Of a stretch of 64,000 nt of DNA, positions 2,183-36,283 are shown piece after piece; the stretch's first letter is position 1; every line of letters starts with the position of its first letter. The DNA comes from Neofamilia massiliensis (GTDB lineage Bacteria; Bacillota; Clostridia; Tissierellales; Peptoniphilaceae). A program made the position numbers and the translations under genes. The stretch lies in contig NZ_CYUJ01000003.1 in the NCBI RefSeq assembly GCF_001299475.1, forward strand, positions 500,409-564,408, read 5' to 3'. A model generated the notes under the pieces. The model did no database searches. It saw nothing but the letters and a program-made list of their open reading frames with translations, and was not told where the DNA came from.

Positions 2183-2199
2183 GCAAGAACCGTGCCAAA
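2183..2199 (-). promoter_or_regulatory. Sigma-54 promoter of the hut operon
   Basis: The minus strand reads TTGGCACGGTTCTTGCG, which matches the -24 (TGGCAC) and -12 (TTGC) elements with the required 5-base spacing. It lies between the sigma-54 activator gene and hutI and points at hutI. The T/G-rich stretch at 2228-2300 upstream contains repeated TTTAGTTTTT blocks and could carry the activator's enhancer sites. Confidence 0.85.
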
Positions 2200-16690: not shown

Positions 16691-16710
16691 ATTCAAGGGA
16701 ATTTTTTTAT
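16669..16710 (+). terminator. Terminator after the ArAE-like gene
   Basis: AAAAATTCCC pairs with GGGAATTTTT around a loop that contains the stop codon, followed by TTTATTT. The reverse complement also ends in a T-run, so it may act both ways. Confidence 0.75.
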
Positions 16711-16761
16711 TTAGATTTACGAATTGTTTTTCTTATATTATGCTAATTAAAAGTAGGAACT

Positions 16762-16890
16762 TTAACTAATAATTTTTTCATTAAACTCTAAGCTAACTAC
16801 AGTATACTCCATGGCTATATCAAGAAATTCCTCAAATAATATATAGTTATCTTGAAGTATAAGTTTTATGGTTTTTGAAAAATTAGTATA
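16762..16890 (-). pseudogene. Possible C-terminal remnant of a lost gene
   Basis: On the minus strand about 41 codons are open and end with TAA at 16762-16764. The last residues read FEEFLDIAMEYTVVSLEF followed by NEKIIS. There is no start codon with a ribosome site and an in-frame TGA lies just upstream, near the end of the transporter gene. It looks like the tail of a truncated gene at the left edge of the A/T-rich block, but chance openness in AT-rich DNA cannot be excluded. Confidence 0.25.
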
Positions 16891-16903
16891 TACTCATATA
16901 CTT
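16876..16903 (-). terminator. Probable terminator after the 16.9-kb transporter gene
   Basis: On the minus strand AGTATAT/ATATACT form a 7-bp stem with a 4-base loop, followed by AATTTTTC. It touches the stop codon of the transporter gene. The stem contains little GC, so confidence is moderate. Confidence 0.5.
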
Positions 16904-16904
16904 T

Positions 16905-18080: not shown

Positions 18081-18102
18081 ATTTTTACCTCCTCTTCATT
18101 TT

Positions 18103-18801: not shown

Positions 18802-18824
18802 AATTCATTTCTATTTTTATAAAA

Positions 18825-18841
18825 AGCAAATTTTGTGCCAA
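18825..18841 (-). promoter_or_regulatory. Sigma-54 promoter for the DUF1275-transporter operon
   Basis: The minus strand reads TTGGCACAAAATTTGCT, with correct TGGCAC and TTGC elements and spacing. It faces the DUF1275 gene and lies about 490 bases upstream (divergent) of a sigma-54 activator gene. Confidence 0.85.
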
Positions 18842-19285
18842 ATTTTTTATTTGACTAAAGTTGTATTAGTGGTTGCTTTATAAATTTCGTGTTACACTTT
18901 TTATAATTATTGCAAAGCAAGATATAAATAGAACAAAATTTATAATTTTCGTCTTAATTAGTACAATTTAAAGTCCAATATAACAAAACTTACAAAAATT
19001 AAATTATATTATAATTCAATCTTGTTAGTTATAGAGCTATGTCAGTTGTTATATAGATAAAATTAAATAGTTGCAAAAATCTATTAATTAAGTGAAATTA
19101 AAAATCATGTAGAAAAATTGTTAATTATTTGTACTAAATCACAATATCAAAAACACTTGAAATTATTTTCAATGTTTTCTGACTTTTTATTTTTCTTACT
19201 ATATTTTAAGATGCTATTTTTTAAGCTTGTAATCTAGTTTATTTATATTTTATTGGGATGTAATGGGATTTTATGGGGTGATTTT
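18842..19285. other. Long AT-rich divergent regulatory interval without genes
   Basis: No open frame with a ribosome site is present. The stretch should carry the enhancer sites for the promoter at 18825. Near the activator gene, TGGGATGTAATGGGATTTTATGGGGTG-like spacing (three TGGG(A/G) blocks about 10 bases apart, 19253-19280) is a visible repeat and a candidate binding site. Confidence 0.4.
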
Positions 19286-19314
19286 TTGAATATATTCCCT
19301 TGTGATGATATAAT
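19286..19314 (+). promoter_or_regulatory. Sigma-A promoter of the sigma-54 activator gene
   Basis: TTGAAT (19286-19291), a 17-base spacer and TATAAT (19309-19314). The start point would fall near 19321, leaving a very short leader that carries only GGTGA before the ATG at 19330. Confidence 0.7.
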
Positions 19315-19329
19315 GTATATGGTGATTCA

Positions 19330-21333: not shown

Positions 21334-21337
21334 TATT

Positions 21338-21354
21338 TTGGCACGAATTTTGCT
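21338..21354 (+). promoter_or_regulatory. Sigma-54 promoter for gamma-glutamyltranspeptidase
   Basis: TTGGCACGAATTTTGCT begins four bases after the activator's stop codon, with correct -24 and -12 elements and spacing. The start point would be near 21366, 36 bases before the ggt ATG. Any upstream enhancer must lie inside the 3' end of the activator gene. Confidence 0.87.
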
Positions 21355-21401
21355 TGTTATATATATGTAAATATTTATAAATAGAATTTAAGGAGGAATT
21401 T

Positions 21402-23018
21402 ATGAAATTTAATTTTGATTCGCTTTCCTATTCTTACCCATCTAGAAGAAACGTTGTTTTTTCTAAAAATGGTATGGTAGCAACAGGAAATCCATTGGCA
21501 GCACAAGCAGGTTTAGAAATTTTAAAAAAAGGTGGAAACGCTATTGACGCAGCAATAGCAACAGCAAGTACATTAAGCGTTGTTGAGCCTACTGGAAACG
21601 GAGTAGGTGGAGACGCTTTTGCCATTATATGGTATAAAGGAAAATTATATGGAATGAATAGTTCGGGACGATCTCCTAAAAATTTAAATCCTCAAGATTT
21701 AATTGATAAAGGATATACTAAAGTTCCATCTTATGGAGTAATACCAATTACTGTACCCGGTATTCCGTCAGCATGGTCATCTCTTGTTGATAAATTTGGA
21801 AAACTTGAATTAAAAGATGTTTTAAAGCCAGCTATTAATTATGCGAGAGATGGTTTTACTCTGCAACCTAATGTATCAAAGTTATGGAAAGCAGCGTATG
21901 ACAAATATAAAATAGAATTAGAAAAGGACAATATTTTTAAATATTGGTATGATACATTTGCTCCAAATGGAGCATGCCCAAAAGCTGGAGACTTATTTAA
22001 AAATCCGTTTTTAGCAGACTCTTTAGAAGAAATTGCCGAAACAAATTCTGATAGTTTTTACCGAGGAAATCTGGCAAAGAAAATTGTTACGTTTTTACAA
22101 GAAAATGGTAGTGCCATGGAGTTATCTGATTTTAATAATTTTGAAACTGAGTATGTCGAACCAATATCTACAAATTTTGAAGGTTATGATGTATTTGAAC
22201 TTCCTCCAAATGGTCATGGTATTAGCGTATTAATGGCACTAAACATTCTAAAACATTTAGATATTAAAAATATAAATTCTTTTGAAAGCATACACAAACA
22301 AATCGAAGCTATGAAACTAGCATTTGTAGATGCTCAAAAATATGTAACTGATCCAAATTATATGAGTGTGTCTATTTCAGATCTTCTATCAGATGATTAC
22401 TCAAAACAAAGAGCATCTTTAATAACAGATACTGCTTTGACACCAGAACCTTCTGATATTATTAAAGGAGGCACCGTTTATATGGCAGCGGCAGACAACG
22501 AAGGAAATATGGTTTCATATATTCAATCTAATTATATGGGATTTGGCTCTGGGGTTGTCGTTCCCGAAACTGGAATCAGTTTACACAATAGAGGAGCTAA
22601 CTTCAGTTTAGATCCTAATCACGATAATTTCATTCAAGGTGGAAAAAAACCTTATCACACTATAATTCCAGGCTTTTTAATGAAAGATAAAAAACCTGTC
22701 GGTCCATTCGGAATTATGGGGGGATTTATGCAGCCTCAAGCTCATTTACAAGTTTTATTGAGTACTATAATTAATAATTGTAATCCTCAAGATGCATTAG
22801 ATAAACCTAGATGGCAATGGACAGGTGGTAAAACTATAGAAGTCGAGCCAGGATTTGATAATAATATAGCTCAACAACTAATGAGAGCTGGACACGACGT
22901 AATAACAAATACACAATCTACCAATTTTGGTAGAGGAGAAATAATTTGGAGAAATGATGAAGATGTTTTATGTGGTGCGACTGAACCAAGAACAGATGGT
23001 TGTGTTGCCGCTTGGTAA
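21402..23018 (+). CDS. ggt: Gamma-glutamyltransferase (Ntn-hydrolase family)
   Basis: The 538-residue protein aligns with the GGT family: NPLAAQAGLEILKKGGNAID, VVEPTGNGVGGDAF and the SSGRSP segment in the large-subunit part. The autoprocessing site GGTVYMAAADNEGNM has the predicted nucleophile Thr358. It continues with the GSGVVVPETGISLHNRG oxyanion region and ends near residue 538. It removes or transfers gamma-glutamyl groups, for example from glutathione. No signal peptide is visible, so it is predicted to be cytosolic, unlike secreted GGTs; it therefore needs an importer, possibly the transporter at 16905. AAGGAGG precedes the ATG. Confidence 0.9.
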   Translation: MKFNFDSLSYSYPSRRNVVFSKNGMVATGNPLAAQAGLEILKKGGNAIDAAIATASTLSVVEPTGNGVGGDAFAIIWYKGKLYGMNSSGRSPKNLNPQDLIDKGYTKVPSYGVIPITVPGIPSAWSSLVDKFGKLELKDVLKPAINYARDGFTLQPNVSKLWKAAYDKYKIELEKDNIFKYWYDTFAPNGACPKAGDLFKNPFLADSLEEIAETNSDSFYRGNLAKKIVTFLQENGSAMELSDFNNFETEYVEPISTNFEGYDVFELPPNGHGISVLMALNILKHLDIKNINSFESIHKQIEAMKLAFVDAQKYVTDPNYMSVSISDLLSDDYSKQRASLITDTALTPEPSDIIKGGTVYMAAADNEGNMVSYIQSNYMGFGSGVVVPETGISLHNRGANFSLDPNHDNFIQGGKKPYHTIIPGFLMKDKKPVGPFGIMGGFMQPQAHLQVLLSTIINNCNPQDALDKPRWQWTGGKTIEVEPGFDNNIAQQLMRAGHDVITNTQSTNFGRGEIIWRNDEDVLCGATEPRTDGCVAAW

Positions 23019-23141
23019 TAATAAAACTACAAACCGAGTTATAAACTCACTATAAAAAATGTTCGATTAATTAAAATTATTATATTTTGATTTTACTCAC
23101 CAGAATTTTTTTACTTTAATTTAACACCGTTTATATAAAAA

Positions 23142-23223
23142 TTGGGCTTAACTTAATTACTAAATTTTAGGTTTATATTAACTTTTTTAGGAAAAGTTTT
23201 TAGTTATGCCCAGCCTTTTTTAT
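23142..23223 (+). terminator. Long-loop terminator after ggt
   Basis: TGGGCTTAACT (23143-23153) pairs with AGTTATGCCCA with one mismatch across a loop of about 50 AT-rich bases, followed by GCCTTTTTT. The loop is unusually long for a simple terminator. The rest of 23019-23398 shows no gene. Confidence 0.55.
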
Positions 23224-23398
23224 ATAAATTGTAGATATTTTTAACAAATATTTATTATTAGTGAATGTCTGACAATAATCTTCAATTTTTTAAAGAAATC
23301 ATTATTTTTTTAATCGAATCTATAGACTTTTATTTATGTTATACCATTATGTGAAGTTAATAATTACTTACATCTAACGAATTTACGAGGAGGAAATT

Positions 23399-24571
23399 AT
23401 GTCATTAAGAGAAGATGCTTTAAAATTACACAAGGATAACCATGGGAAAATCTCTGTTGAGTCAAAGGTAGAGGTAAAAGATGCAGCGGCCCTTTCACTT
23501 GCCTATTCACCAGGAGTAGCAGAACCTTGTAAGGAAATTGCCAAAGACAAGGACCTAGCTTTTGAATATACAAACAAGGGCAATATGGTAGCTGTTGTAA
23601 CAGACGGCTCAGCAGTTTTAGGCCTTGGAAACATTGGTGGTATAGCAGGACTTCCAGTTATGGAAGGAAAGGCTGTATTATTTAAAGAATTTGCTGGCGT
23701 AGATGCCTTCCCAATTTGCTTAGACACCCAAGACCCAGAAGAAATTATTCAAACAGTTAAGCATATTGCACCAACTTTCGGTGGAATTAACCTAGAAGAC
23801 ATTAATGCACCAAAATGCTTTGAAATAGAAGCAAGACTTAAAAAAGAATTAGACATTCCAGTTTTCCACGACGACCAACATGGTACAGCAATAGTAACTC
23901 TAGCAGGAATTATTAACGCCCTTAAAGTTGTTGGAAAGAAAATCGAAGACTGTACAGCAGCAATTTCTGGAGCAGGAGCTGCGGGAATTGCCATAGCAAA
24001 ACTTTTAGTTTCAGCTGGTATTAAAGACGTAATCGTTTGTAACTCAAGGGGAATCCTAGAACCAAATGACGAAAAACTTGACCCAATTAGAAAAGAAGTA
24101 GCTGAGACTACAAACAAGACTAAGAAGACAGGAACTCTAGCAGACGCTATGAAGGAAGCAGACATCTTTATTGGAGTATCAGTTTCAGATGTAGTTTCTA
24201 AGGAAATGGTTGAATCAATGAACGACAACGCTATAGCCTTTGCAATGGCCAATCCAGTTCCAGAAGTAACTCCAGAAATAGCCAAGGCTGGTGGCATTAG
24301 AATTATGGGAACAGGAAGATCAGACTTCCCTAACCAAATTAACAACGTCTTAGCCTTCCCTGGAATCTTCAAGGGAGCTCTAGCAGTTCGTGCTAAAGAA
24401 ATTAACGAAGAAATGAAAATTGCAGCAGCTCATGCAATTGCAAACTTAATTGATGAAAAAGACTTAAACGAAGACTATGTAATTCCATCACCATTTGATG
24501 AAAGAGTTGCAGATGCAGTAGCCAATGCTGTAAAAGAAACAGCCATTAAAACTGGCGTAAGTAGAAAATAG
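23399..24571 (+). CDS. Malic enzyme (oxaloacetate-decarboxylating malate dehydrogenase)
   Basis: The 390-residue protein is a short bacterial malic enzyme. It has the start [17 protein letters not shown], the YSPGVAEPC motif, the [14 protein letters not shown] loop, [12 protein letters not shown] with the metal-binding aspartates, and the NAD(P) fold [26 protein letters not shown] follows. It interconverts malate with pyruvate and CO2, linking the C4-acid and pyruvate pools. Cofactor preference cannot be read reliably. It stands alone between two A/T-rich blocks, and its own codon use resembles the housekeeping genes. GAGGAGG precedes the ATG. Confidence 0.94.
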
Positions 24572-24659
24572 TATAAATTAATAAAAAATCTTTTCTATTT
24601 ATTTTTTTAATTTTAATTAATAATAAATATAGATTTTTTAGAATAAAGTAACTTTTAAT

Positions 24660-24689
24660 GGCTCTTTGTCAAATAGTTTTGATGAAGAG
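24660..24689 (+). mobile_element. ISL3-family-type terminal inverted repeat (remnant)
   Basis: The sequence GGCTCTTTGTCAAATAG followed by TTTTGATGAAGAG matches the terminal repeat style of ISL3-family insertion sequences, whose ends begin GGCTCTTTGTCAA. No transposase frame follows and no convincing second end was found within the next kilobase, so this is a relic. It marks the start of a gene-free stretch between malic enzyme and the six-gene cysteine operon. Confidence 0.5.
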
Positions 24690-24704
24690 AAAAGTAACTA
24701 ACAA

Positions 24705-24736
24705 GTGGCTCAGACAGTAATGTCTTGGCCATTTTT
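24705..24736 (+). terminator. Hairpin with T-run just inside the ISL3-type end
   Basis: GTGGC and AGACA pair with TGTCT and GCCAT around GTAA, followed by TTTT. Such hairpins near IS ends can block read-through into the element. It could equally serve as a late terminator for malic enzyme. Confidence 0.5.
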
Positions 24737-25349
24737 CATTATACTGAAGCTTTTTATATACGAAGACTTTTGTTTTATTTTAGTTATAGAAACTTTTATA
24801 ACTAAACGTATCACTCTTAATAAGCTCAATCTTTTTGATATTTTCTTTAAAAACAATTCTTATATCATACTTGTAATTATTTATAGTAAATCCTCTAAGT
24901 CTCAATTACTAAATTAATATAGTTAGAGACTATAATCAAATTTCGTATCAAGCATAGAATAAAATATATCTTTAAATGTCAAACATTAGAAATCCTAATA
25001 GAGGCTAAGATAGGCCAAACAAACCTGTAATACTCTTTAACCTATTATCATCAAGAAATGGAAAAGTATCAATAATAGTAACAATGAGCTTGGATTTCAA
25101 TAAGTTGGAAAAATTATTTAAAGATTCAATACTAACGAAAGCCATAATAAATATACTAGCCTTATTACCCTGATAATAGATACATTTATAGAAATAAGCT
25201 ATAAAATTAAAAATACTATATCATGGTCTAAAGAAATATTACGAAAATATGGACCAGCTTTCAATCATAAGGGTTAGCGTTTATCGTTGATATTTATATT
25301 AGATTTATTATGGAAGGAAATTTAAACTATATCTATTATTTACAATAAA
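24737..25349. other. Gene-poor, AT-rich stretch with apparently decayed coding sequence
   Basis: No frame here has both a ribosome site and recognisable protein content. Short open pieces exist on the plus strand, such as one near 25055-25165 (reading SRNGKVSIIVTMSLDFNKLE) and one near 25228-25276 (WSKEILRKYGPAFNHKG then stop). They are broken by stops and frame changes and look like decayed coding DNA. I cannot name the source gene. Confidence 0.35.
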
Positions 25350-25392
25350 GCAAAAATAGTGTTAACAGACTTTTGTCCATCAACACTATTTT
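25350..25392 (-). terminator. Terminator of the six-gene cysteine-derivative operon
   Basis: AAAATAGTGTT and AACACTATTTT form a perfect 11-bp stem around an 18-base loop. On the minus strand it is followed by TTGCTTTATT. It lies about 80 bases after the last gene of the operon. Confidence 0.75.
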
Positions 25393-25474
25393 GTATGAAG
25401 TCTTTTATAATTAATTTATTAATACTAAAATTAGTAAAATTCTTCTAAAAATAACAACTTTAATATGTTTTTTA

Positions 25475-26644
25475 TTATAAACATTTTTGATACTCTAAAA
25501 CATAATTTACAAAGTATAAAACTCCTAGTTTTAAAACTCTTTCATCTATATCCATTTCAGGAGAGTGTAACGGATGACGATCTTCCATTTCCTCTTTACC
25601 TCCTCCTAAGAAAGCAATTGCCTTTTTGCAATTATATTTTGCAAAATCTTCTCCACCCATTTGTCTTTGAAAGTCTTTGATAATAAATTTATCTTCTAAT
25701 ACATTAGACAGTCCTCTAATTCCAATTTCAACAACTTCTTTATCATTTATCATTACAGGCGGTCCTTGGTAATAATTTAGACTTATTTTAGTGTTTGTCA
25801 AAGATTTTATACTTTCTACTATTTGCTTTATATCTTCCTCAAATTTTTCTGAGATTTTTGGATTAAACGATCTTGTAGTTCCTTTTATAACTGCAGTTTC
25901 TGGAGTTATATTATATGTTTGTCCTGATTGAAACGCTGTTATTGATATAACAGCAGATTCTTGTGAATCATATTTTAAAGACATAGTATTTATCAAAGTA
26001 TTTACTATATAATTCCCAGCAACAATTGGATTTATGTTTTCATGAATTATGGCTCCATGGCCACCCTTGCCTTGAATGGAGATGTCAAAAGTATCCGCAG
26101 AAGCCATAACTGGCCCTTCTCTTAAAGCTATATATCCAGCTGGTATTGAAGGCCAAATATGAATCGCTATCAAATTATCACATTCTAATATTTCTTCTTC
26201 TTCTTTTAAATATTTAGCTCCAGAATCACTTATAAATTCTTCAGCAGGTTGAAAGATAAAAACAATATTTACTTTTAGTTCATCTTTTATTTGAGCTAAA
26301 ATTTTGCAAGTTCCTAATAGCATTGCTGTATGGGAATCATGTCCACAAGAATGCATAATACCAGCATTTTTTGATTTAAATGGTAAGTCTGTATTTTCTT
26401 CCATTTCTAGAGCATCAATATCTGCCCTAATTCCTATTGTTCTATAGTCTTCATTTATTTTAATCCAGCCTATCACTCCAGTATTTTTTACTTTTCTATA
26501 AGAAATACCGTAATTTTCAAGACATTCTATTATCTTTTTTTGTGTATTAAACTCATCCCAGGATTTTTCAGGATACATGTGGAAGTATCTTCTTAATTCT
26601 ATAACTTCTTTTTCTATATCTAAAATCATATTTTGAATGTCCAT
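25475..26644 (-). CDS. M20D-type metal-dependent amidohydrolase
   Basis: The 389-residue protein has the full M20D pattern: RRYFHMYPEKSWDE, GIRADIDALEM, the metal cluster HSCGHDSHTAM, QPAEE with the catalytic Glu, IHIWPSIPAGYIA, a dimerisation domain in the middle, and HPLHSPEM near the end. The family cleaves acyl, acetyl or related groups from amino acids (hippurate, IAA-amino acids, N-acetylcysteine derivatives). It is cytosolic. As last gene of the sigma-54 operon with an ATC-hydrolase family gene and cysteine desulfidase, it could free cysteine from an N-acyl or N-carbamoyl precursor (inference). The iron-sulfur gene ends 3 bases upstream. Confidence 0.88.
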   Translation of the reverse strand: MDIQNMILDIEKEVIELRRYFHMYPEKSWDEFNTQKKIIECLENYGISYRKVKNTGVIGWIKINEDYRTIGIRADIDALEMEENTDLPFKSKNAGIMHSCGHDSHTAMLLGTCKILAQIKDELKVNIVFIFQPAEEFISDSGAKYLKEEEEILECDNLIAIHIWPSIPAGYIALREGPVMASADTFDISIQGKGGHGAIIHENINPIVAGNYIVNTLINTMSLKYDSQESAVISITAFQSGQTYNITPETAVIKGTTRSFNPKISEKFEEDIKQIVESIKSLTNTKISLNYYQGPPVMINDKEVVEIGIRGLSNVLEDKFIIKDFQRQMGGEDFAKYNCKKAIAFLGGGKEEMEDRHPLHSPEMDIDERVLKLGVLYFVNYVLEYQKCL

Positions 26645-26647
26645 ATA

Positions 26648-26959
26648 TCATAAACTCCTACAAACTAAATCTTTAATACAAGTATTATTAAGTGGTGATA
26701 AATGAATATCTTCATCTTTTTCAATTTTTGTTATACAGGAAACAATATTTTTATTGTTTAGTTTCATTATGCATCTCATACAAATTCCATGATTACACTT
26801 GCTATGAGAATAAAAACTTAAAGTAGGGTCAATTTCACTTGAGATATAAACTAATAAATCCATTATTGTTTTTCCCCTAACTTTATCATAATCAACTTTA
26901 TATTCTTCAACCCATTGTTTCTTTTCTCTAGGATTGTATCTATCAACTTTTATTCTCAT
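26648..26959 (-). CDS. Minimal [2Fe-2S] protein of the SdhB/FrdB N-terminal type
   Basis: Only 103 residues long, it corresponds to the plant-ferredoxin-like half of succinate dehydrogenase/fumarate reductase iron-sulfur subunits. The motif HSKCNHGICMRC gives C55, C60 and C63, with C75 downstream. It ends with a SPLNNTCIKDLVC segment like the PL...IKDL linker of SdhB. The second domain with [4Fe-4S] and [3Fe-4S] clusters is missing altogether. It lies one base after the flavoprotein stop codon, so it should hand electrons to or from that flavoprotein. No membrane anchor gene is present. Confidence 0.75.
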   Translation of the reverse strand: MRIKVDRYNPREKKQWVEEYKVDYDKVRGKTIMDLLVYISSEIDPTLSFYSHSKCNHGICMRCIMKLNNKNIVSCITKIEKDEDIHLSPLNNTCIKDLVCRSL

Positions 26960-26960
26960 A

Positions 26961-28760
26961 TTACCTCCTATAATTTAAACTTGGGTCCATAAAATATTCA
27001 ACAACCGATTCTGATTTTCCTTGCTTTAAATCTATCTTTGTTACTCTTGGTTTCCTTTTTGTTATAATAAAATTATTGTTTTCATCTAAAGAAACCACAT
27101 TTTTTACAGTATAGTTATCAAAATCTACTTCTGGAAAATCTTTTCTTATATGACATCCTCTACTTTCTTTTCTTTCTAGTCCAGAAATGATAGAAGCTTT
27201 TACGCATTGTAGTAAATTTTCGCTTGATATAGCATTAATAAGTTCAACATTATAAATTAAAGATTTTTCTTTAGTTCTTATACTCTTTTGTTGATCAATT
27301 AAACAATTAATTGTATTTAGTGCCTTTCCCATTCCTTCTTCATCTCGCAGATAAGAAAATCCTTCATCGCAAGCTTTTTCAATTGATTTATAAATTTGAA
27401 TAGCATTCATACCATCTTCATCGTCTAAATATTTCATAACTTTATCTATAGATTTTTCAATTAATTCATCTTCAACTTCAAGTCTATTTATATTTTTTAT
27501 ATATTCATATGCGCTCAATCCAGCTCTCATACCTTGTGCTAACATTTCGACTATTCCATCACCAACTCTACAAGCACCAAATACACCACTAGTAACTTCT
27601 CCTGCTGCATACAATCCTTCTACTGAAGTTTCCATTTTGTCATTTACTTCTATGCCACCCATACAGTACTCAAACCCCATACCAACTTCAAGAGGCTTTT
27701 TATCGTATATAATTTTTTCAACTTCAGCTAAGCTTTCTCCCTTATAATATCCATGTTTGTGCCAATTATCAAAACGGTTATATAAAGTCTCAAAGCTTTT
27801 ATCAATTGTCTCAACTGAATTTTGTGAATAGTCATAAAACCAACCATCGTGTGATCCAAGTAAGTTTTCATCCTTACATTTACCAAAATAATATGTTGTT
27901 ATTAATTTAGATAGCTTGCCACCACGCGAAACTCGTATAACATCTTCAGGAATATTTACTACTTCTCCATTTTTGTCAATGATATCGTATTTTAAGTCTC
28001 TCATATTATATTCAAATATAAATGGGTAAATTGATCCTTTCATGTGCTCAGGGTAAACTGCAGTTGGAAAAGCTAAAATAAATTCCATGTCTGATAAACT
28101 TGCTCCAGCTCTTAGAGCCATAGCTTGCCCATCACCAGTCATGTCAGTAACAGTATTATTTTCTGAAAATGGTTGGTATCCACCAGTCCCAATTATAGTT
28201 GCTTTAGATTCAAAAAATATAAACTCTCCGTTTATAATATCTATACCTAAGGCTCCACAAACTTTTTCTTTATCTTTTATAAGTTCAAAAATTATTACAT
28301 CCTCAAAAACCTCTACTTCAGGATGTTGTTTTAGCCCATATCTTAAGGACTTTCCTATAGATAGGCCTGACATAATCCAATTAGCTGGTTTAAAAAACAA
28401 AAATTTTTGCTTTGATGCGTCTTTCCATTCCAAAAGTTTATTAACAGCAATTGGACCTTCTTTTACATATTGTTCAACCATGTCTTGATCGGATAAATAG
28501 AACGATTCTTTAACAATACAATCAAACATGCGGTCTCTTGTAAATGACTCATCCGCATCTTTAATCCCTAGTTCAGAGGCACTTTGTCCATCTATACCAA
28601 AGCCACCTCCTGCCATTATGGCATTCCCTGAAAATCCTACTTTACCCTTAGATACTAATGTTACTTTAACATCACTCTTGCTTGCATAAACACTAGCCAT
28701 AACTCCGGCTCCTGATCCACCAATGACAAGTAAATCCGTTACAACTTTTTTATATCTCAT
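26961..28760 (-). CDS. FAD-dependent fumarate reductase/AprA-type flavoprotein
   Basis: The 599-residue protein begins with an FAD dinucleotide motif (DLLVIGGSGAGVMASVYAS). It has the HS-like TDMTGDGQAMALRAGA covalent-FAD neighbourhood found in fumarate reductase/SdhA and APS reductase A. A second FAD motif near the end reads VEGLYAAGEVTSGVFG and GDGIVEML, followed by a helical C-terminal domain ending in RGCHIRKDFPE. It should oxidise or reduce a small substrate with the partner [2Fe-2S] protein. There is no signal peptide. The substrate is not fumarate by any evidence here; operon context suggests an organic sulfur or amino acid derivative. Confidence 0.8.
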   Translation of the reverse strand: MRYKKVVTDLLVIGGSGAGVMASVYASKSDVKVTLVSKGKVGFSGNAIMAGGGFGIDGQSASELGIKDADESFTRDRMFDCIVKESFYLSDQDMVEQYVKEGPIAVNKLLEWKDASKQKFLFFKPANWIMSGLSIGKSLRYGLKQHPEVEVFEDVIIFELIKDKEKVCGALGIDIINGEFIFFESKATIIGTGGYQPFSENNTVTDMTGDGQAMALRAGASLSDMEFILAFPTAVYPEHMKGSIYPFIFEYNMRDLKYDIIDKNGEVVNIPEDVIRVSRGGKLSKLITTYYFGKCKDENLLGSHDGWFYDYSQNSVETIDKSFETLYNRFDNWHKHGYYKGESLAEVEKIIYDKKPLEVGMGFEYCMGGIEVNDKMETSVEGLYAAGEVTSGVFGACRVGDGIVEMLAQGMRAGLSAYEYIKNINRLEVEDELIEKSIDKVMKYLDDEDGMNAIQIYKSIEKACDEGFSYLRDEEGMGKALNTINCLIDQQKSIRTKEKSLIYNVELINAISSENLLQCVKASIISGLERKESRGCHIRKDFPEVDFDNYTVKNVVSLDENNNFIITKRKPRVTKIDLKQGKSESVVEYFMDPSLNYRR

Positions 28761-28793
28761 AGTACCTCCAGTAAGTAAATAACTATATTTTAA

Positions 28794-30053
28794 CTATTTT
28801 ATAAATTTTAATACATAATTTATAACTGCATATCCATTAAGAATTACAGCTAAACAAGAAAAAATTGTTAGAATTATTCCGTTTCTATACTTTCCTGCGA
28901 ATTCTTTATTTCTTAAATCCTTTGTCAATAGGAAAATAATTATAAATCCTCCCAAGTTAAGCAACCCAATAAAGCTAACAAGAACCTTCATTATAGATCC
29001 CTTTATCACAAGTCCGCCTGCTATTGAGATTAATATCCCTAGCCAAACAACTCTATTACTTGTATTTTCTGTGTTAGAAGAACTATTTATAGTTTTAATC
29101 TGGTTTATTCCTTCAGAAAATAAGTTGCTCATTCCTCCTACAGTTGTAAATAAAGCACCAAAGAATCCTAAAGCAAATATCCATTTAGCCATTGATCCTA
29201 CTAGAGGTTCTAGAGAAATTGCTGCATCTAAGGTACTTGATGGTATTATTCCCATTGGATTCAAAACTGCTGCTGCTGAAAGAAATGCACCGGCAGAAAA
29301 TACTATAAATACAAATGAAAAGTATATTTGATCCCAAGCTATAAATCTTAAATTATCAGGATGGGTGTATCCAGATTTTTTTACTGAAATAGAATACCAC
29401 GCCGCTGAAGTTCCAGGTGCAGATCCACCTATAATTCCTGTGATAACAGCAGCTTGAGCTAATGGTGGAATTCTAGGAATTAAACCTTTTCCTACTTCAA
29501 CCATATCTGGTTTTACAACAAAAACGTTAATTAATAATAGTAGGGAAACTATTGTTACCATATAAGATGCTAGTTTATTAACAGTCACATTTCCTGATGT
29601 AAAAAAATATCCCGCAACTAATTCAACAATTATAAATGCAATAATAGCTATTGTTCCAGGTGCTCCTACAAAAAACTCAACAATTTGTAGCATAGCTGCA
29701 CCTTGTGACAATATAACTAAAGCCCATGTTGTTAATACTAAGCAAAGCAAAACAGTCGTGAAAACTTTTCCATATTTATCAGCAAAATATTCATAAACAC
29801 TTTTCCCTGTAATACAAGCAATTTTTCCTCCTACATATGAAACCACACCATTCATGATTCCACCTAAAATAATTACCCATAGTAAAGAATATCCAAAATT
29901 GCTTCCAGCTGAAATTGATGCAGCCAATGTTCCAGGCCCCATTACCGCCGACATTAAAACTGATCCGGCTCCAATAAATCCAAATATATATTTTAGCTTT
30001 TTAAACAAATTGCCTTCCGGCATATTAAATTCTCTTATTTTATTATTTTCCAT
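28794..30053 (-). CDS. Nramp-fold transporter lacking the metal-binding motifs
   Basis: The 419-residue protein has about eleven membrane helices and the general look of Nramp/NRMT carriers (APC fold). In helix 1 the canonical DPGN is replaced by MGPGT (residues 38-42, followed by LAASISAGSNFGYSLLW). In helix 6 the MPH motif is replaced by GSAPGTSAAW. Divalent-metal binding by the usual residues is therefore unlikely, and an organic substrate is more plausible (inference). It sits between the ATC-hydrolase family gene (16 bases upstream) and the flavoprotein gene in the sigma-54 operon and probably imports the operon's substrate. Confidence 0.68.
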   Translation of the reverse strand: MENNKIREFNMPEGNLFKKLKYIFGFIGAGSVLMSAVMGPGTLAASISAGSNFGYSLLWVIILGGIMNGVVSYVGGKIACITGKSVYEYFADKYGKVFTTVLLCLVLTTWALVILSQGAAMLQIVEFFVGAPGTIAIIAFIIVELVAGYFFTSGNVTVNKLASYMVTIVSLLLLINVFVVKPDMVEVGKGLIPRIPPLAQAAVITGIIGGSAPGTSAAWYSISVKKSGYTHPDNLRFIAWDQIYFSFVFIVFSAGAFLSAAAVLNPMGIIPSSTLDAAISLEPLVGSMAKWIFALGFFGALFTTVGGMSNLFSEGINQIKTINSSSNTENTSNRVVWLGILISIAGGLVIKGSIMKVLVSFIGLLNLGGFIIIFLLTKDLRNKEFAGKYRNGIILTIFSCLAVILNGYAVINYVLKFIK

Positions 30054-30069
30054 GATTTTACCCTTTCTT

Positions 30070-30786
30070 TTAAAATATTATATTAAAATTTTCCTGTCTA
30101 TATGAGATTAACCTATCTCCCGCTTCCATACCATAATCATCTATAAAGTCTTTTAGCACTTTATCAGATATTAATTTTCCCTCATATTTAAAAATTGAAG
30201 TTATAACCTCTTTGAAACTCCAATACAAGTGAGCACAATGATAAACAAATGGTTTAATGTTTGCCTTATCTTTATCAATAGGCTTGTAGTTTACCATATT
30301 GGCATTATGAATTCTGTGTATACAAGAATTGTCTGTATGCAAAAATTTTTCAACATCATAAATTAAAGACGGATTAAACCCCCTACATATGGACGAATCC
30401 AAGTATTTACAGTAAACCATACCTGCCTTTTCACAATTCATTTCATTAAATTGTAAATGCCAAGGACAAGTGTTAATTTCAATTACAAAGTCTTTGTCAT
30501 TTTCAATAATATGATTATCATTAGCTTGTCTTAGATTTTTTGTATATTCTGTGCTTATCCACTCCCCATAATTCATATAAGTTTCAAAATTTAATTCTTT
30601 CCCATCTCTTATTGCCCTCTGAGCCATTCTTCTTCCCCTTTGTGTAGCATAATAAATTGTTGCATTGATAAATGCTTGTTCCCCCCTTTCTCCAAATGCT
30701 TCTACTAAGTAGTTATAGTATTTAGCTACCAAATAAGCTTGTGTCTTTTCATTAAAGATACTATTTTCTTCTAGCTTTTTACTCAT
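30070..30786 (-). CDS. L-2-amino-thiazoline-4-carboxylic acid hydrolase family protein
   Basis: The 238-residue protein matches the ATC hydrolase family in size and conserved features: an N-terminal helical part with ATQRGRRMAQRAIRDG, the CPWHLQF motif, YCKYLDSSICRGFNPSL, and a late CIHRIHNAN. In Pseudomonas the characterised member opens the thiazoline ring of 2-aminothiazoline-4-carboxylate to give N-carbamoyl-L-cysteine. Many homologues have no tested activity, so the substrate here is open. It lies 17 bases after the L-cysteine desulfidase gene and shares its transcript, supporting a cysteine-yielding role. AAGGAGG precedes the ATG. Confidence 0.75.
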   Translation of the reverse strand: MSKKLEENSIFNEKTQAYLVAKYYNYLVEAFGERGEQAFINATIYYATQRGRRMAQRAIRDGKELNFETYMNYGEWISTEYTKNLRQANDNHIIENDKDFVIEINTCPWHLQFNEMNCEKAGMVYCKYLDSSICRGFNPSLIYDVEKFLHTDNSCIHRIHNANMVNYKPIDKDKANIKPFVYHCAHLYWSFKEVITSIFKYEGKLISDKVLKDFIDDYGMEAGDRLISYRQENFNIIF

Positions 30787-30803
30787 ATATACCTCCTTGT
30801 TTT

Positions 30804-32099
30804 TTATCTATCTATTATATCAATTACTACCTCGTCTACTTGGGTAAAGGCTTCTTTAGAAAGCTTACCTACATTTAAAATTGTCTCTTCAATTGATCCG
30901 CCTACTACTCCAACGTTGTCATCTGTTATCATGCCGTTTAGGGCTAGGTAGGCTGCTACTACTGATTCTTCGGCACAGGTTGATAGTTTCATGGAACAAG
31001 ATTCTTTGGCTCCGTCGCAGATCATTCCTGTTAGGTTGCCGTAAAGGTTTGAACAGGCTCCTGCTATTTGTTTTTCGTCACCTCCTAACATATAGACTAT
31101 GCCTGCTGCAGCTCCAACTCCTGCTCCAATTGCACAGCCACAAATACCTGAAAGTTTTCCTGAATATTCTTTTACGTATTTGTTTAAAACGTGGGCAAAG
31201 AACAGAGCCTTGGCTAAATTTTCATCTGAAATTTTTTCGTGTTTACCCACAACTGAAATCGGAAGAATAACTCCTATGCCTTGGTTGCCTGAGCCACCTG
31301 ATGTAAAAACTTCACATTGGCCACCGCCCATTCTCATGTCAGCTGCTGCAGCTGTTAGAATTCTCGTTTTAGTTAGGACATTGTCTTCAATAATTTTTTT
31401 ATCTCTAAGACCTTGAAGGGTTTTGCCAAGTTTTGAGCCGTAGCCCTTAAGTCCTTCTTGGGCTGCTTTCTTGTTGACTTCAATTCCCTCTAAAGTAAAC
31501 ATCAGGTCCTTAGGGTCAGCTTGGTCAACTATGGCTTTTAATTTTTCTAGGGACAAGTCTCTAAAGTTAAAGTCATCAACTTTCTCTTCAGTTTCCTTTT
31601 CTTCATCTGCTGAGAAGACAAGTTTTCCATCTACTAAAACTTCTTTTAATTTTGTGTGTCCGTTTTCAACTATGGCTTCTACATTTGAATTTTCTGTCTC
31701 AACTTTGATACTGATGTAGATATTAGGAGTATTTTCTAAGTATTTTACCTCCACTAGGCCGTCATCAACTAACTTTAGACTTTTGTCTAAAATTTCTTCA
31801 GTTAGACTTTCGAAAATCAATGTTGGAGCTATGTCTAAGTCTTTGGAATAAAGACCAATGGCTCCTGCTAGGTCTATGCCATGTCTGCCCTTTGTATTTG
31901 GTATCTTTACTGACTTGGCGTTTTTGTAAATGCTTTTTGATGTGCTTATTGTAAGCTTTTTAATTTTATCATCTTTTATTCTTCTGCCTGCTTCATAGGC
32001 CGTGTAGGCAATTGCAACTGGCTCTGTACAGCCTAGGGCTCTAGTTGAATCTTCCTTTACACTTGAAATTAGTTTATTTAAAATTTTTTTGTCGTCCAT
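30804..32099 (-). CDS. cyuA: L-cysteine desulfidase, CyuA/YhaM (UPF0597) family
   Basis: The 431-residue protein belongs to the iron-sulfur serine-dehydratase-like family: TRALGCTEPVAIAYTAYEAG at the start, GGGQCEVFTSGGSGNQGI in the middle, and the cysteine-rich SGICGCAIGAG and ICDGAKESCSMKLSTC segments that would hold a [4Fe-4S] cluster. It converts L-cysteine to pyruvate, ammonia and sulfide. First gene of a six-gene operon under the sigma-54 promoter at 32124, which leaves a leader of only about 14 bases. Its G/C content and codon use look like the housekeeping genes, whereas the genes behind it are A/T-richer. Confidence 0.87.
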   Translation of the reverse strand: MDDKKILNKLISSVKEDSTRALGCTEPVAIAYTAYEAGRRIKDDKIKKLTISTSKSIYKNAKSVKIPNTKGRHGIDLAGAIGLYSKDLDIAPTLIFESLTEEILDKSLKLVDDGLVEVKYLENTPNIYISIKVETENSNVEAIVENGHTKLKEVLVDGKLVFSADEEKETEEKVDDFNFRDLSLEKLKAIVDQADPKDLMFTLEGIEVNKKAAQEGLKGYGSKLGKTLQGLRDKKIIEDNVLTKTRILTAAAADMRMGGGQCEVFTSGGSGNQGIGVILPISVVGKHEKISDENLAKALFFAHVLNKYVKEYSGKLSGICGCAIGAGVGAAAGIVYMLGGDEKQIAGACSNLYGNLTGMICDGAKESCSMKLSTCAEESVVAAYLALNGMITDDNVGVVGGSIEETILNVGKLSKEAFTQVDEVVIDIIDR

Positions 32100-32123
32100 T
32101 TATTTCACCTCGCCTATATATGT

Positions 32124-32140
32124 TGCAATTTTCGTGCCAA
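32124..32140 (-). promoter_or_regulatory. Sigma-54 promoter of the cyuA operon
   Basis: The minus strand reads TTGGCACGAAAATTGCA, a full match to the TGGCAC-N5-TTGCA consensus, 25 bases before the cyuA start codon. The activator gene ends about 100 bases upstream; the T-rich interval 32141-32200 with repeated TAGCTTTTATTAGCTTAT is the likely enhancer region. Confidence 0.9.
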
Positions 32141-32202: not shown

Positions 32203-32251
32203 AATAAAAAAAGTATCAAGATTGAGATTTTTAGTCTCAAGATTGATACTT
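32203..32251 (-). terminator. Terminator overlapping the end of the cyu activator gene
   Basis: AAGTATCAATC... and ...GATTGATACTT arms give 15 of 17 pairs, followed on the minus strand by TTTTTTTATTTT. The upstream arm includes the last codons of the activator gene, which separates the regulator transcript from the cyuA operon. Confidence 0.8.
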
Positions 32252-33991
32252 CATCTTTCTATATAGGGTCGCCCGAGAAATTTTAAGCTCCTTGGCAACT
32301 TGTTCCTTGCCTGCTTCGTCTGATCCATATTTGTTTAAAAGGTCTTGGATTAGTTTTTCTTCGTAAATTTTTACCCTTTCGTTTAAAGACAAGGTGTTTG
32401 AATCTGAAATATTTATTCTTGTCCTAACATGGTCTACTTCAATGTAGCCAGAGGAAATAAAGTTTGAGATGTATTCAATTACATTTTCTAATTCACGGAT
32501 ATTTCCTGGCCAGGAATAGGCTTCTAAAAGATCCATGGCCTCTTTGGTAAAGCCTTTAATGTCTTTATGAAATCTCTGGTTGTTTAAGTTTACAAAATAA
32601 TTGGCAATTAATTCTATGTCAGACTTTCTGTCCTTTAAGGCTGGAATTTTTATTGGGATGACGTTTAGCCTGTAGTAAAGGTCTTCTCTAAAGGACCCGT
32701 CCTTGACCATTTGTTCTAGGTCTTTATTTGTAGCTGCAATTATTCTTAGGTCTAACTTTATTGGATTTAGGCCGCCGACTCTGGTTATTTTCATGTCTTG
32801 AAGGACCCTAAGCATTTTTGATTGGAGGTAGAGGTTCATGTCTGCAATTTCGTCTAAGAAAAAAGTTCCCTTGTTGGCAATTTCCATTTTGCCAATTTTT
32901 CCTCCCTGTCTGGCTCCAGTAAAGGCTCCACCTTCATAACCAAAAAGTTCGCTTTCGAGAAGGGCTTCTGGAATTGCTGAACAGTTTATTGATACAAAGG
33001 GACTTAACCTTCTTGGCGAGTGTTCGTGAATGGCTCTGGCGAAAAGTTCTTTTCCTGTTCCACTTTCTCCTGTTATTAAAATATTTGAGTCAAAGGTCGC
33101 TGCAATTTCTGCCTTTTCTTTTACTTCTACATAGTTTTTCGCCTGGCCTAGGAGGTTGTCAAAGGATGTATCAGATGAGGACTCTCTAATTTTTGCCGCC
33201 GTCTTTTGAATGGAGTCAGAGTCAGTAAAGGTTCCAACTATTGAAGATAGTTTTCCCCCTTCGTAAATTTTTATTATATGACTAGAGACTAGTCTTTCTT
33301 TTCCTTTAAGTTTTATAACTTCTTGGTCTTTAATTTCTAGGCGAGTATTTTCTTCTTTTGATGCCTTTTCTAAAAGAGATCCTGGCCAAAGGCTTTTTAT
33401 TTTTATATTTTTTTCTACAGATTTTTTCCCTAGCATTTTTAAGGCTGGGTCGTTTATGTGTTTGACACTTCCGTCTTCTGCTATACAAATTACTCCGTTG
33501 TTAATATTATTTATTAGAACATTTAATTCCTTGTTTTTTAATTCTATACGGTTTTTTATGTCCACTTCCATCATGTGACTGGCTAGAAGTGAGGCCATTT
33601 TTTCAATGTACTTTATAAAGGAATCTTCTTTTTCCATGAGAAAGTCTCTTTTTTCATCTGTTGTTGCAATTAGGCCTAGGACTCCAATAACTTGGTCTTC
33701 AAAAATTATTGGACTGCAAATTTCAAATTTCTCCTGGCAAAGACCTCTCTTATCGCAGTAGAGACATTCATTGTCTGCTTTGGGATTTCTAACTATAATA
33801 GTTTTTTTCTTTTCTCTGGCAGACTTAAAGGCAGAAAATTCTGGAATCTTTTTGCCAATGGTCTTTTTAAAATCTCCAGTTCCTGCTATTCTAATATTTT
33901 CTGTATTTGAAATTGTTACATGGCAGCCAGTTGTTTCAAATATTGCATCTGAAATTCCCTGGGCAAAGTCGTAAAGTCTTTTGTCTATCAT
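32237..33991 (-). CDS. Sigma-54-dependent activator with cysteine-motif sensor domain, probable cyu operon regulator
   Basis: The 584-residue protein has an N-terminal GAF-like sensor (about 1-145) containing C76, C79, C85 and C92 in the pattern C-x2-C-x5-C-x6-C (ECLYCDKRGLC...EIC), then a PAS domain (about 160-260), a sigma-54 AAA+ domain (GESGTGKE, GAFTGA, FFLDEI) and a Fis-type helix-turn-helix (GKEQVAKELKISRATLYRKM). The four cysteines could bind a metal or cluster, or react with thiols. It lies directly upstream of the cyuA sigma-54 promoter, so cysteine or sulfide sensing is a reasonable inference. Confidence 0.87.
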   Translation of the reverse strand: MIDKRLYDFAQGISDAIFETTGCHVTISNTENIRIAGTGDFKKTIGKKIPEFSAFKSAREKKKTIIVRNPKADNECLYCDKRGLCQEKFEICSPIIFEDQVIGVLGLIATTDEKRDFLMEKEDSFIKYIEKMASLLASHMMEVDIKNRIELKNKELNVLINNINNGVICIAEDGSVKHINDPALKMLGKKSVEKNIKIKSLWPGSLLEKASKEENTRLEIKDQEVIKLKGKERLVSSHIIKIYEGGKLSSIVGTFTDSDSIQKTAAKIRESSSDTSFDNLLGQAKNYVEVKEKAEIAATFDSNILITGESGTGKELFARAIHEHSPRRLSPFVSINCSAIPEALLESELFGYEGGAFTGARQGGKIGKMEIANKGTFFLDEIADMNLYLQSKMLRVLQDMKITRVGGLNPIKLDLRIIAATNKDLEQMVKDGSFREDLYYRLNVIPIKIPALKDRKSDIELIANYFVNLNNQRFHKDIKGFTKEAMDLLEAYSWPGNIRELENVIEYISNFISSGYIEVDHVRTRINISDSNTLSLNERVKIYEEKLIQDLLNKYGSDEAGKEQVAKELKISRATLYRKMKYQS

Positions 33992-34064
33992 AATAGGCCC
34001 TTTCTTTAATCTTTTCTCCTTCTAAAATCATTATATAATAAGGGTCCTTTTTCTCCAAATAAAA

Positions 34065-34126
34065 TTTCCCCTAGCATAAAGTTAACTTTTATAAATAAAA
34101 AGCTAAGAGCTAGGGGATTTTTTAAT
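34065..34126. terminator. Long-stem terminator between the cyu activator and racemase genes
   Basis: TCCCCTAGC (34067-34077) pairs with GCTAGGGGA (34113-34122) around a long AT-rich loop that contains smaller stems. A T-run follows on the plus strand, and ATTTTATTT on the minus strand, where it ends the racemase transcript. Confidence 0.6.
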
Positions 34127-34834
34127 TTAGTGAATTATTTTTTTGTATTTTAACTTATAACCTGACCTTAGAATGCACTCTCTAGTTAATACTGATAAGG
34201 CATCAACTACTTTGTCTTCTATATCTTTTTCTAAATTTATAGTTGAAAGTTCTGTACAGGCTATAAGAGGAACTGAACCCTTGTCTAAATAGTACCTGCA
34301 AATTTCATTAAAGTCTTTAAAATTTGTATCATTAGTTGCCTTTATATGATAAATAGTATCCATTAACTTTTTTGCAATTTGATCATCAACCTTTAGCTGG
34401 TCTAGGCCATATTTTTTTATATACTTGTCGTAGATGCCAGTTTGTAAGGTCCCTGTAGTTCCAAGAACTGTAACTTTATTTCCCAGTTTTTTTGCATCAA
34501 AACTTGCAAGGTCAATCATATTTATAAAGGAAATGCTTGTAAGTTTTTCTACTTCTTCTAGAAAGTAGTGAAAGGTATTACAGGCTACAGCAATATTTTC
34601 TACTCCATAAGATTCAAAGGCTCTTATATCCTTTCTCACTGGATCTATAATTTCACTATGATCTCTATTTTCTAAAATCACCTTGGTCCTATCTGGTATA
34701 CTTGCGTGAGATAAAAGCATTATGTCAATGTGGTCATTATCACTAGCTGCCAAGGTGTTGTTAGTTATTCTTTCATAAAAAACTTTACTTGCTAGAGGTC
34801 CCATGCCTCCTAGTATTCCTAATTTCTTTTTCAT
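34127..34834 (-). CDS. Aspartate/glutamate racemase family protein
   Basis: The 235-residue protein starts MKKKLGILGGMGPLASKVFY, the signature of the Asp/Glu/hydantoin racemase family (RacD/YgeA). It has the two catalytic cysteines in VACNTFHYF and IACTELS. It interconverts L- and D-forms of an acidic or related amino acid without PLP. It follows the dicarboxylate/amino acid symporter by 27 bases and is probably cotranscribed, which suggests uptake and racemisation of aspartate or glutamate. Broad-specificity YgeA-like activity is an alternative. Confidence 0.87.
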   Translation of the reverse strand: MKKKLGILGGMGPLASKVFYERITNNTLAASDNDHIDIMLLSHASIPDRTKVILENRDHSEIIDPVRKDIRAFESYGVENIAVACNTFHYFLEEVEKLTSISFINMIDLASFDAKKLGNKVTVLGTTGTLQTGIYDKYIKKYGLDQLKVDDQIAKKLMDTIYHIKATNDTNFKDFNEICRYYLDKGSVPLIACTELSTINLEKDIEDKVVDALSVLTRECILRSGYKLKYKKIIH

Positions 34835-34861
34835 CTTGGTCTATAATCATGCTAGATGTTA

Positions 34862-36109
34862 TTATTTACTTAACTTTTGTCTTCTATAAACTTCTTCGTC
34901 AAACTTGCCTTCTGATTTAGCAACTATCACTGAACAGGAAATATCTCCTAGGACATTAATTGATGTTCTAATCATATCAAAAATCCTATCGATTCCTGCT
35001 ACTAAGGCTATACCTTCAACTGGAATTCCAACTCCTTGTAGAACCATTGCAAGCATAATCATTCCTGCACCTGGAACACCTGCTGTTCCTACTGATGCTA
35101 AGACAGTTGTAAGTACAATAGTAAGTTGTTGGCCCAAGTTCATATCAATTCCATAAACTTTTGCAATAAAGAGAGCACAAACTCCTTGATAAATTGCTGT
35201 TCCATCCATGTTAATAGTTGCACCAAGTGGAAGAACAAAGGATGCAATTGGTTTAGAAACTCCTAGTTCATTTTCACAAGTGTCTAGAGATATAGGTAGA
35301 GTTCCTGCTGATGATGATGTAGTAAAGGCTACTGCCCATGGAGTGAAAGCTTTTCTAAAGAAAGTTCCAGCTGGAAGTTTTGCTATTAACTTTATTGATC
35401 CTCCGTATATTAAAAACGCATGCAAGATACAACCTAGATAAACTATAGCTACTACCTTTATAAGAGGTAATAATACTTGAGGTCCATTTGCTGCTATAAC
35501 TGGAGCAATAAGTCCAAAGACACCAATAGGAGCAAATTTCATTATTCCATTTGTTATGTGAATCATAGCATCTTGTAAACCGTCAAAGAAATTAAATACT
35601 GCTGTGCCCTTGTCTCCTGAATAAAGCAAACCAGCTCCAAGAATAAGAGCAAAGACAATTATTTGAAGCATTTGGCCTTCAACTAGAGACTTAAGCGGAT
35701 TAGATGGAACTATGTTAATAAGTGTATCTATAAAGCTAGGGGCTTCTTTTGCTTCAAACTCTAATTGTTCTGCAGGTAAAACAAAGCCTGATGATACGTC
35801 TAATAAGTTCGCAAGAAGTAAACCAATTATTATTGCAAAAGTTGTAGTTACAAAGAAGTAGACAAAGGTTTTCATTCCAATTTTGCCTATTTGCTTTGCA
35901 TCTTTTAAGTCTGCAACTCCTACTACTAGAGACGCAAATACCAATGGTACAATTACAAGTTTAATAAGGTTTAAAAATAATGTACCAAGTGGTTTAATAA
36001 AGCTATTTGCTATCTCTGCATTATTTTGTAATAAAATACCTACCACTATACCTGCCAACAGTCCTATTAATATTTGAATAGGAAGGGACATCTTTTTCTT
36101 TTCTTTCAT
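34862..36109 (-). CDS. Dicarboxylate/amino acid:cation symporter (DAACS, GltP/GltT-like)
   Basis: The 415-residue protein carries the family hallmarks: eight main membrane helices, the re-entrant loop AFTTSSSAGTLPISL, the NMDGTAIYQG motif that binds sodium and substrate, and the second hairpin VPGAGMIML. These proteins take up glutamate, aspartate or C4-dicarboxylates with Na+ or H+. First gene of a two-gene unit with the racemase. The 36110-36227 interval holds its promoter region, where no clear consensus was fixed. AAGGAGG precedes the ATG. Confidence 0.93.
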   Translation of the reverse strand: MKEKKKMSLPIQILIGLLAGIVVGILLQNNAEIANSFIKPLGTLFLNLIKLVIVPLVFASLVVGVADLKDAKQIGKIGMKTFVYFFVTTTFAIIIGLLLANLLDVSSGFVLPAEQLEFEAKEAPSFIDTLINIVPSNPLKSLVEGQMLQIIVFALILGAGLLYSGDKGTAVFNFFDGLQDAMIHITNGIMKFAPIGVFGLIAPVIAANGPQVLLPLIKVVAIVYLGCILHAFLIYGGSIKLIAKLPAGTFFRKAFTPWAVAFTTSSSAGTLPISLDTCENELGVSKPIASFVLPLGATINMDGTAIYQGVCALFIAKVYGIDMNLGQQLTIVLTTVLASVGTAGVPGAGMIMLAMVLQGVGIPVEGIALVAGIDRIFDMIRTSINVLGDISCSVIVAKSEGKFDEEVYRRQKLSK

Positions 36110-36227
36110 TTCGCTACCTCCTTATATTATGTTAGCTATATTGTATCACGAATTTGATTTTTTTAGAATTAATTAATATATTAACGTTTTCCTTAATTAT
36201 TATTACAGTTAATTATAATTTGAGCAA

Positions 36228-36264
36228 AGAAAAACCCCTCCATCTTTATAAGACTTTGGGGTTA
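36228..36264 (-). terminator. Terminator of the DUF5058-glutaminase-M20 operon
   Basis: On the minus strand AACCCC pairs with GGGGTT around an AT-rich loop with further pairing (AAAGTCTTA/ATAAAGAT region), followed by TTTTC. It separates this operon from the symporter gene. Confidence 0.65.
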
Positions 36265-36283
36265 TATAAATAACTTTTTCTTT

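Follow-up and report, generated by a model that had tools for sequence, protein, structure and literature searches.

The minus strand of a 64,000-nucleotide window from Neofamilia massiliensis (contig NZ_CYUJ01000003.1, positions 500,409 to 564,408) carries six genes whose open reading frames are separated by 17, 16, 33, 1 and 3 bases. In the direction of transcription, they encode a CyuA/CdsB-type [4Fe-4S] cysteine desulfidase (30804..32099; SDH_alpha PF03313, 182 bits), predicted to convert L-cysteine to pyruvate, NH3 and H2S; an ATC_hydrolase-family protein (30070..30786; PF14196, 54 bits against a cut-off of 28.1), predicted to be a thiazoline hydrolase; an Nramp-fold carrier (28794..30053; Nramp, 121 bits), predicted to serve an organic substrate; a soluble flavoprotein with an altered active site, from the succinate dehydrogenase/fumarate reductase superfamily (26961..28760; FAD_binding_2 and Succ_DH_flav_C), a predicted ring dehydrogenase; a small [2Fe-2S] protein consisting of the SdhB N-terminal domain only (26648..26959; Fer2_3, 72.5 bits), its putative electron partner; and an M20 metallo-amidohydrolase of the N-acyl-amino-acid type (25475..26644; Peptidase_M20, 126 bits; TIGR01891), which is predicted to release cysteine from N-acyl-cysteine. 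Gene positions, short gaps and all six family assignments agree with a first-pass annotation of this DNA. A purine-rich ribosome-binding stretch precedes every one of the genes, and their spacing suggests a single transcript.

The operon starts behind a sigma-54 promoter, TTGGCACGAAAATTGCA (32124..32140, minus strand), with zero mismatches to TTGGCACG-N4-TTGCW (spacer AAAA, then TTGCA), so that the full consensus described in the first-pass annotation holds. The genome encodes one sigma-54 gene, and the promoter is kept both in a second genome of the same genus (G121) and in Clostridium bovifaecis (TTTGGCACAGCAATTGCT). When up to two mismatches were allowed, a scan of the window returned six sigma-54 sites versus 1.5 expected by chance, including a second perfect site ahead of another operon.

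Two elements can be added to the earlier description. Directly upstream of the operon lies the gene of a sigma-54-dependent activator (32237..33991, minus strand; Pfam Sigma54_activat, 229 bits, and HTH_8), the predicted operon regulator, which combines a SpoVT_C/GAF-like sensor, a PAS domain, an AAA+ domain and a Fis-type helix–turn–helix. In addition, two near-palindromic TCAAGATTGA boxes (32212..32251, not assigned to a strand; direct repeat D1 plus inverted repeat I1) lie 21 bp apart and ~100-140 bp upstream of the predicted start, with similar boxes before CyuA in G121. They are probably the binding sites of the activator, and might double as the terminator of its gene.

This arrangement of an adjacent sigma-54 activator, a -24/-12 promoter and paired upstream sites is that of the CdsR-CdsB unit of C. 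difficile, in which a CyuA/CdsB-type enzyme likewise stands behind TTGGCACG-N4-TTGC with paired upstream repeats 21 bp apart, and by this analogy the activator resembles CdsR. In C. difficile, the two inverted repeats of cdsB, at -179/-190 and -200/-211, fall inside the region on which induction by cysteine depends (PMC5767170). A reconstruction of sigma-54 regulons lists cdsB alone under CdsR (PMC6615313), whereas here five further genes follow CyuA.

Conservation and origin of the gene set

A first survey of 249 genomes of the order, 73 of which have an ATC_hydrolase-family gene, turned up one more complete set, in Kallipyga gabonensis of the same family. A contig scan with the single flavoprotein sequence returned no match, and a scan based on four aligned flavoprotein orthologues gave 31 clear orthologues (38-57% identity) from Clostridia to Treponema, in named as well as metagenome-assembled genomes (MAGs); four weak matches (L078-L081, 20-24% identity) were excluded from all counts. 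Neighbours were scored within 9 kb of the flavoprotein gene, meaning that the counts cover flavoprotein neighbourhoods, and many ATC-family genes lie elsewhere.

On the same strand, 30 of the 31 flavoprotein genes are accompanied by the [2Fe-2S] gene (the sole exception being a 3.7-kb fragment), 28 by an ATC-family gene, 21 by an M20 gene and 11 by CyuA; a divergent copy on the opposite strand brings the loci with a CyuA-type gene to 12. Chance would give ~0.1 ATC-family and ~0.2 CyuA neighbours among the 31 loci, as estimated from rough densities in relatives (~0.7 CyuA-type and 0.4 ATC-family genes per genome) and approximate genome sizes and counts. All six families recur in five other named genomes, K. 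gabonensis, Flavonifractor sp., Agathobaculum massiliense, Clostridiaceae bacterium strain 9 and C. bovifaecis, the last with the gene order of the window plus one short-chain dehydrogenase/reductase (SDR) gene (activator-CyuA-ATC-Nramp-(SDR)-flavoprotein-[2Fe-2S]-M20) and an activator 47% identical to that of the window. Five further loci (L052, L061, L063, L064 and L077) have the [2Fe-2S], ATC-family, M20 and CyuA genes next to a TctABC-like, Na+/H+-antiporter-type, major facilitator superfamily or not identified transporter instead of the Nramp-fold carrier. The operon is, hence, a conserved unit, as the first-pass annotation had proposed to check; its most constant core consists of the flavoprotein, the [2Fe-2S] protein and the ATC-family protein, and CyuA is more variable.

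This variability raises the question of whether the five genes behind CyuA degrade a compound other than a cysteine derivative and merely share a promoter with a pre-existing desulfidase. Such an account would explain why G121 has the activator-CyuA unit alone and why many loci lack CyuA, and it would fit the M24, M28 or Amidohydro_1 hydrolases and the peptide ATP-binding cassette (ABC) transporters that substitute for M20 and Nramp in some loci. Yet CyuA-type genes of different clades stand in 12 loci, far above chance. A tree built from 43 CyuA proteins does not unite those of the operons in a single group; its well-supported branches require four or more changes of association, which indicates that CyuA was recruited more than once. 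Because different CyuA branches repeatedly pair with the same core, a functional link between the two is favoured, and the non-cysteine account appears unlikely.

The comparison with G121 bears on how the locus was assembled. Its activator and CyuA are 82% and 73% identical to those of the window and lie adjacent, with the same promoter type and boxes, and the gene directly after CyuA corresponds to window positions 15743-16690. Absent from this place are window positions ~16,700 to 30,800, with the five remaining operon genes, a second sigma-54 operon and a malic enzyme gene, as well as 33,992-36,281; searches of the G121 genome, which is 73% complete, found no ATC-family gene and no gene for the flavoprotein. 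The five genes thus look like an accessory cassette placed behind an older CdsR-CdsB-type unit, the simplest account of the break in synteny, with loss of the cassette in G121 as the alternative. CyuA does belong to the operon, as annotated at first; what changes is its standing, with CyuA and the activator appearing as an older, separate unit and the other five genes as an addition. As the activator also works with CyuA by itself, it probably responds to cysteine.

Horizontal acquisition was also considered on composition alone and is unproven on those grounds. Third-position GC is 0.17-0.19 in the M20, flavoprotein and carrier genes versus 0.30-0.32 in CyuA and the activator, but the window has other genes just as low and, except for the ATC gene, codon usage lies within the spread of the window, making the synteny break the more informative observation.

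Further features surround these genes. The second sigma-54 unit (19330-23018, plus strand), which falls inside the 14-kb stretch missing in G121, comprises an activator with PAS and AAA+ domains, a perfect promoter, TTGGCACGAATTTTGCT, at 21338-21354 and a gamma-glutamyltranspeptidase gene, whose product could free cysteinyl-glycine from glutathione and thereby supply the same cysteine pool. Two more sites with one mismatch, at 18825-18841 and 2182-2198 (both minus strand), make the window rich in sigma-54-like promoters; the former lies 24 bases ahead of a DUF1275 gene (18103-18801). Positions 34127-36109 (minus strand), which lie between the activator gene and another M20 gene, encode an Asp/Glu/hydantoin-type racemase, whose closest model is the cysteate racemase CuyB with a score below the cut-off, and a glutamate/aspartate-type symporter. 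Both genes are absent from this place in G121, and no conserved association with the cassette was observed; the racemase would be useful if the ring substrate were racemic.

Active sites of the encoded proteins

The flavoprotein model fits succinate dehydrogenase and fumarate reductase folds (template modelling (TM) score about 0.78), and the overall sequence and the [2Fe-2S] partner domain are likewise those of the soluble members of this superfamily. The active site departs from them. Glu364 replaces the fumarate/succinate-binding histidine of the FrdA motif HYTMGG (FrdA His355), the histidine of the FrdA motif HPTG (His232) at the first substrate position is lost, and the position of the histidine that covalently binds flavin adenine dinucleotide (FAD) is Asn46; FrdA Arg287 and the Thr244-Glu245 region do not align, so that the comparison covers the remaining positions. 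Asn46, Lys285, Glu364, Tyr365 and Arg398 are invariant among the 31 orthologues, and Arg398 is the one substrate arginine retained in all of them. Owing to the three histidine changes, fumarate or succinate is an unlikely substrate, and fumarate respiration was rejected on the same active-site grounds; a monocarboxylate with a ring nitrogen near Glu364 would fit. The four cysteines of the [2Fe-2S] protein are invariant among 30 operon homologues, and the [3Fe-4S]/[4Fe-4S] domain and membrane anchor of succinate dehydrogenases and fumarate reductases are missing here. A deltaproteobacterial MAG (L067, 3240-4508) has a fusion of the [2Fe-2S] protein with glyoxalase-type domains, which may hint at the substrate.

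In anaerobes, soluble flavoproteins of the fumarate-reductase-like kind reduce terminal electron acceptors. The pair could accordingly serve as a reductase, with the imported compound or one of its products as the terminal acceptor, and what it reduces would then be broken down by the hydrolases and CyuA. The closest relatives of the flavoprotein by sequence and fold, the solubility of the pair and the mostly anaerobic hosts all fit this role. Against it, two fumarate/succinate-binding residues are replaced, one of them by an invariant glutamate; no electron donor such as a cytochrome or an NADH module is encoded alongside, and a family search found no extra flavin mononucleotide (FMN) or NADH domain in the flavoprotein. 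This reading is therefore judged improbable. The first-pass annotation had seen in the pair an added redox step, for example reduction or aromatisation of a ring or use of the substrate as electron acceptor. That the pair belongs to the constant core, and is thus not optional, upholds the redox step as such, whereas none of these specific uses is particularly supported; dehydrogenation of a thiazolidine is preferred because it accounts for more of the parts.

For the ATC-family protein, sequence profiles found no relative of known structure. Its structure model (predicted local distance difference test score 89.7) has as nearest solved folds in Foldseek TRAPPC3/Bet3 and the V4R phenol sensors MopR and PoxR, matches of weak significance (probability 0.97-0.99, but E 0.04-0.1 and TM 0.35-0.48). 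Cys107, Tyr125, Cys126, Asp130 and Cys155 are invariant among 21 homologues, and a V4R/Bet3-like fold with three invariant cysteines is tentatively predicted. As V4R sensors of the MopR type hold zinc by three cysteines and one glutamate (PMC10715001), a zinc site, catalytic or structural, is plausible here too.

The hydrolase at the end of the operon has intact metal ligands (Cys100, His102, Glu136, His162 and His360, invariant among 13 homologues) and scores 319 bits against the N-acyl-type amidohydrolase model TIGR01891, whose cut-off is 153.75. It has no match at 0.001 to the carbamoylase model TIGR01879, and among the operon M20 homologues tested, the best reaches 36.6 bits against a cut-off of 204. 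In CyuA, Cys24, Cys320, Cys361 and Cys368 are invariant among 12 operon homologues. The carrier, aligned to MntH structures, has GPGT instead of DPGN in transmembrane helix 1 and APGT instead of Met-Pro-His in transmembrane helix 6, and both replacements are invariant among five operon carriers. Since both metal-binding motifs are replaced, metal transport was rejected.

In some loci, other genes join or replace the M20 gene. A nitroreductase-family gene (PF00881) adjoins it in operons of gut Clostridia (L049, 15425-16270; L050; L056), and its product might accept electrons or work on a by-product. Amidohydrolase-type genes (PF01979, tested in L054) lie beside the ATC-family gene in L054, L060 and L015, which suggests related substrates with other protecting groups; no M20 gene was found in L054 and L060, and L054 also carries an oligopeptide-type ABC transporter.

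A candidate route from cysteine-derived rings to sulfide

The M20 and flavoprotein assignments bear directly on the closest described precedent. In Pseudomonas, 2-amino-thiazoline-4-carboxylate (ATC) is converted via N- or S-carbamoyl-cysteine to cysteine and on to pyruvate, sulfide and ammonia (PMC10821248), and PF14196, whose cut-off the operon protein exceeds, is named after the ATC hydrolase of this pathway. Both systems combine a member of this family with an amidohydrolase and would yield cysteine. The operon might, in the same way, open ATC or a similar ring to N-carbamoyl-cysteine, cleave it by M20 and degrade the product by CyuA, with the flavoprotein as an accessory. However, the Pseudomonas enzyme is a carbamoyl-cysteine amidohydrolase, whereas the operon M20s are of the N-acyl type and, by the family models, not carbamoylases. 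Moreover, ATC requires no redox step, yet the flavoprotein pair constantly accompanies the ATC-family gene in these loci; together with the Nramp-fold carrier and CyuA, the pair is extra to the Pseudomonas pathway. We regard this possibility as quite improbable. Of the complete cysteine-yielding route put forward in the first-pass annotation, the overall idea survives as the best reading, as the six families travel together, and the N-carbamoyl branch is disfavoured by the M20 family.

A route that releases cysteine and employs these parts together is probable on the sequence evidence. Which ring it starts from is a more tentative matter, and every reaction, substrate and redox direction that follows is one that we infer. 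The Nramp-fold carrier would import thiazolidine-4-carboxylate, the condensation product of cysteine with formaldehyde or another aldehyde; the flavoprotein would dehydrogenate the ring to 2-thiazoline-4-carboxylate and pass the electrons to the [2Fe-2S] protein; the ATC-family protein would hydrolyse the thiazoline to N-formyl- or N-acyl-L-cysteine; the M20 enzyme would free L-cysteine and formate or another carboxylate; and CyuA would turn cysteine into pyruvate, ammonia and sulfide. Bacteria and mitochondria convert thiazolidine-4-carboxylate (thioproline) to N-formylcysteine (PMC9814826), bacterial proline dehydrogenase oxidises it (PMC7939384), and it is present in mouse gut contents (PMC5874438). 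With its oxidation and the formation of N-formylcysteine known, each part of the operon gains a role, and the opening of an amino-thiazoline by the namesake of the ATC family is consistent with the ring-opening step. The proposed chemistry of dehydrogenation, ring opening and cysteine release is the same as in thioproline oxidation by proline dehydrogenase or ProC (PMC9814826, PMC7939384, PMC12899673); what differs is the proposed use of a dehydrogenase from the succinate dehydrogenase superfamily with a [2Fe-2S] partner, encoded together with a predicted dedicated ring hydrolase and deacylase.

Several observations speak against this proposal. The known thiazolidine oxidase is proline dehydrogenase, whose fold is unrelated; the operon encodes no electron acceptor for the [2Fe-2S] protein; and the ATC-family protein has a predicted fold that recalls ligand-binding and sensor domains rather than known hydrolases. 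No CyuA gene lies near 19 of the 31 flavoprotein genes, and the acetogens C. carboxidivorans, C. drakei, C. ragsdalei and C. muellerianum (loci L057-L059 and L073) have only a 145-aa regulator-like upstream gene, the [2Fe-2S] gene, a short ATC-family gene and the flavoprotein gene, without M20 or CyuA. Loci without CyuA, and such bare cores above all, raise the possibility that the core may act on other rings or a wider class of them.

The locus is thus best described as a CdsR-CdsB-type desulfidase unit joined to a predicted ring-opening route that is ATC-like and includes an unusual redox pair. That the conserved accessory cassette takes a cysteine-derived ring to free cysteine, and so feeds the older sigma-54-controlled desulfidase unit, is a fair guess that falls a little short of an even chance, and we hold thiazolidine as the ring still more tentatively. 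Somewhat doubtful is the broadest claim, namely that anaerobes degrade cysteine-aldehyde adducts (thiazolidine carboxylates) through a widespread and so far undescribed pathway in which a succinate dehydrogenase-type thiazolidine dehydrogenase and a V4R-fold thiazoline hydrolase would link dietary and host aldehyde adducts to gut hydrogen sulfide. In the open-access papers searched, we found no description of an operon with these parts or of such a route, in line with the first-pass statement that no operon with the full set is known to have been described.

If the route exists, cyclic cysteine derivatives would supply gut and environmental anaerobes with cysteine, carbon and sulfide, and surveys that look only for cysteine desulfhydrase genes would overlook this source of sulfide. 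It would also give functions to the ATC_hydrolase family and to the flavoprotein/[2Fe-2S] pair, which have so far been named only by similarity.

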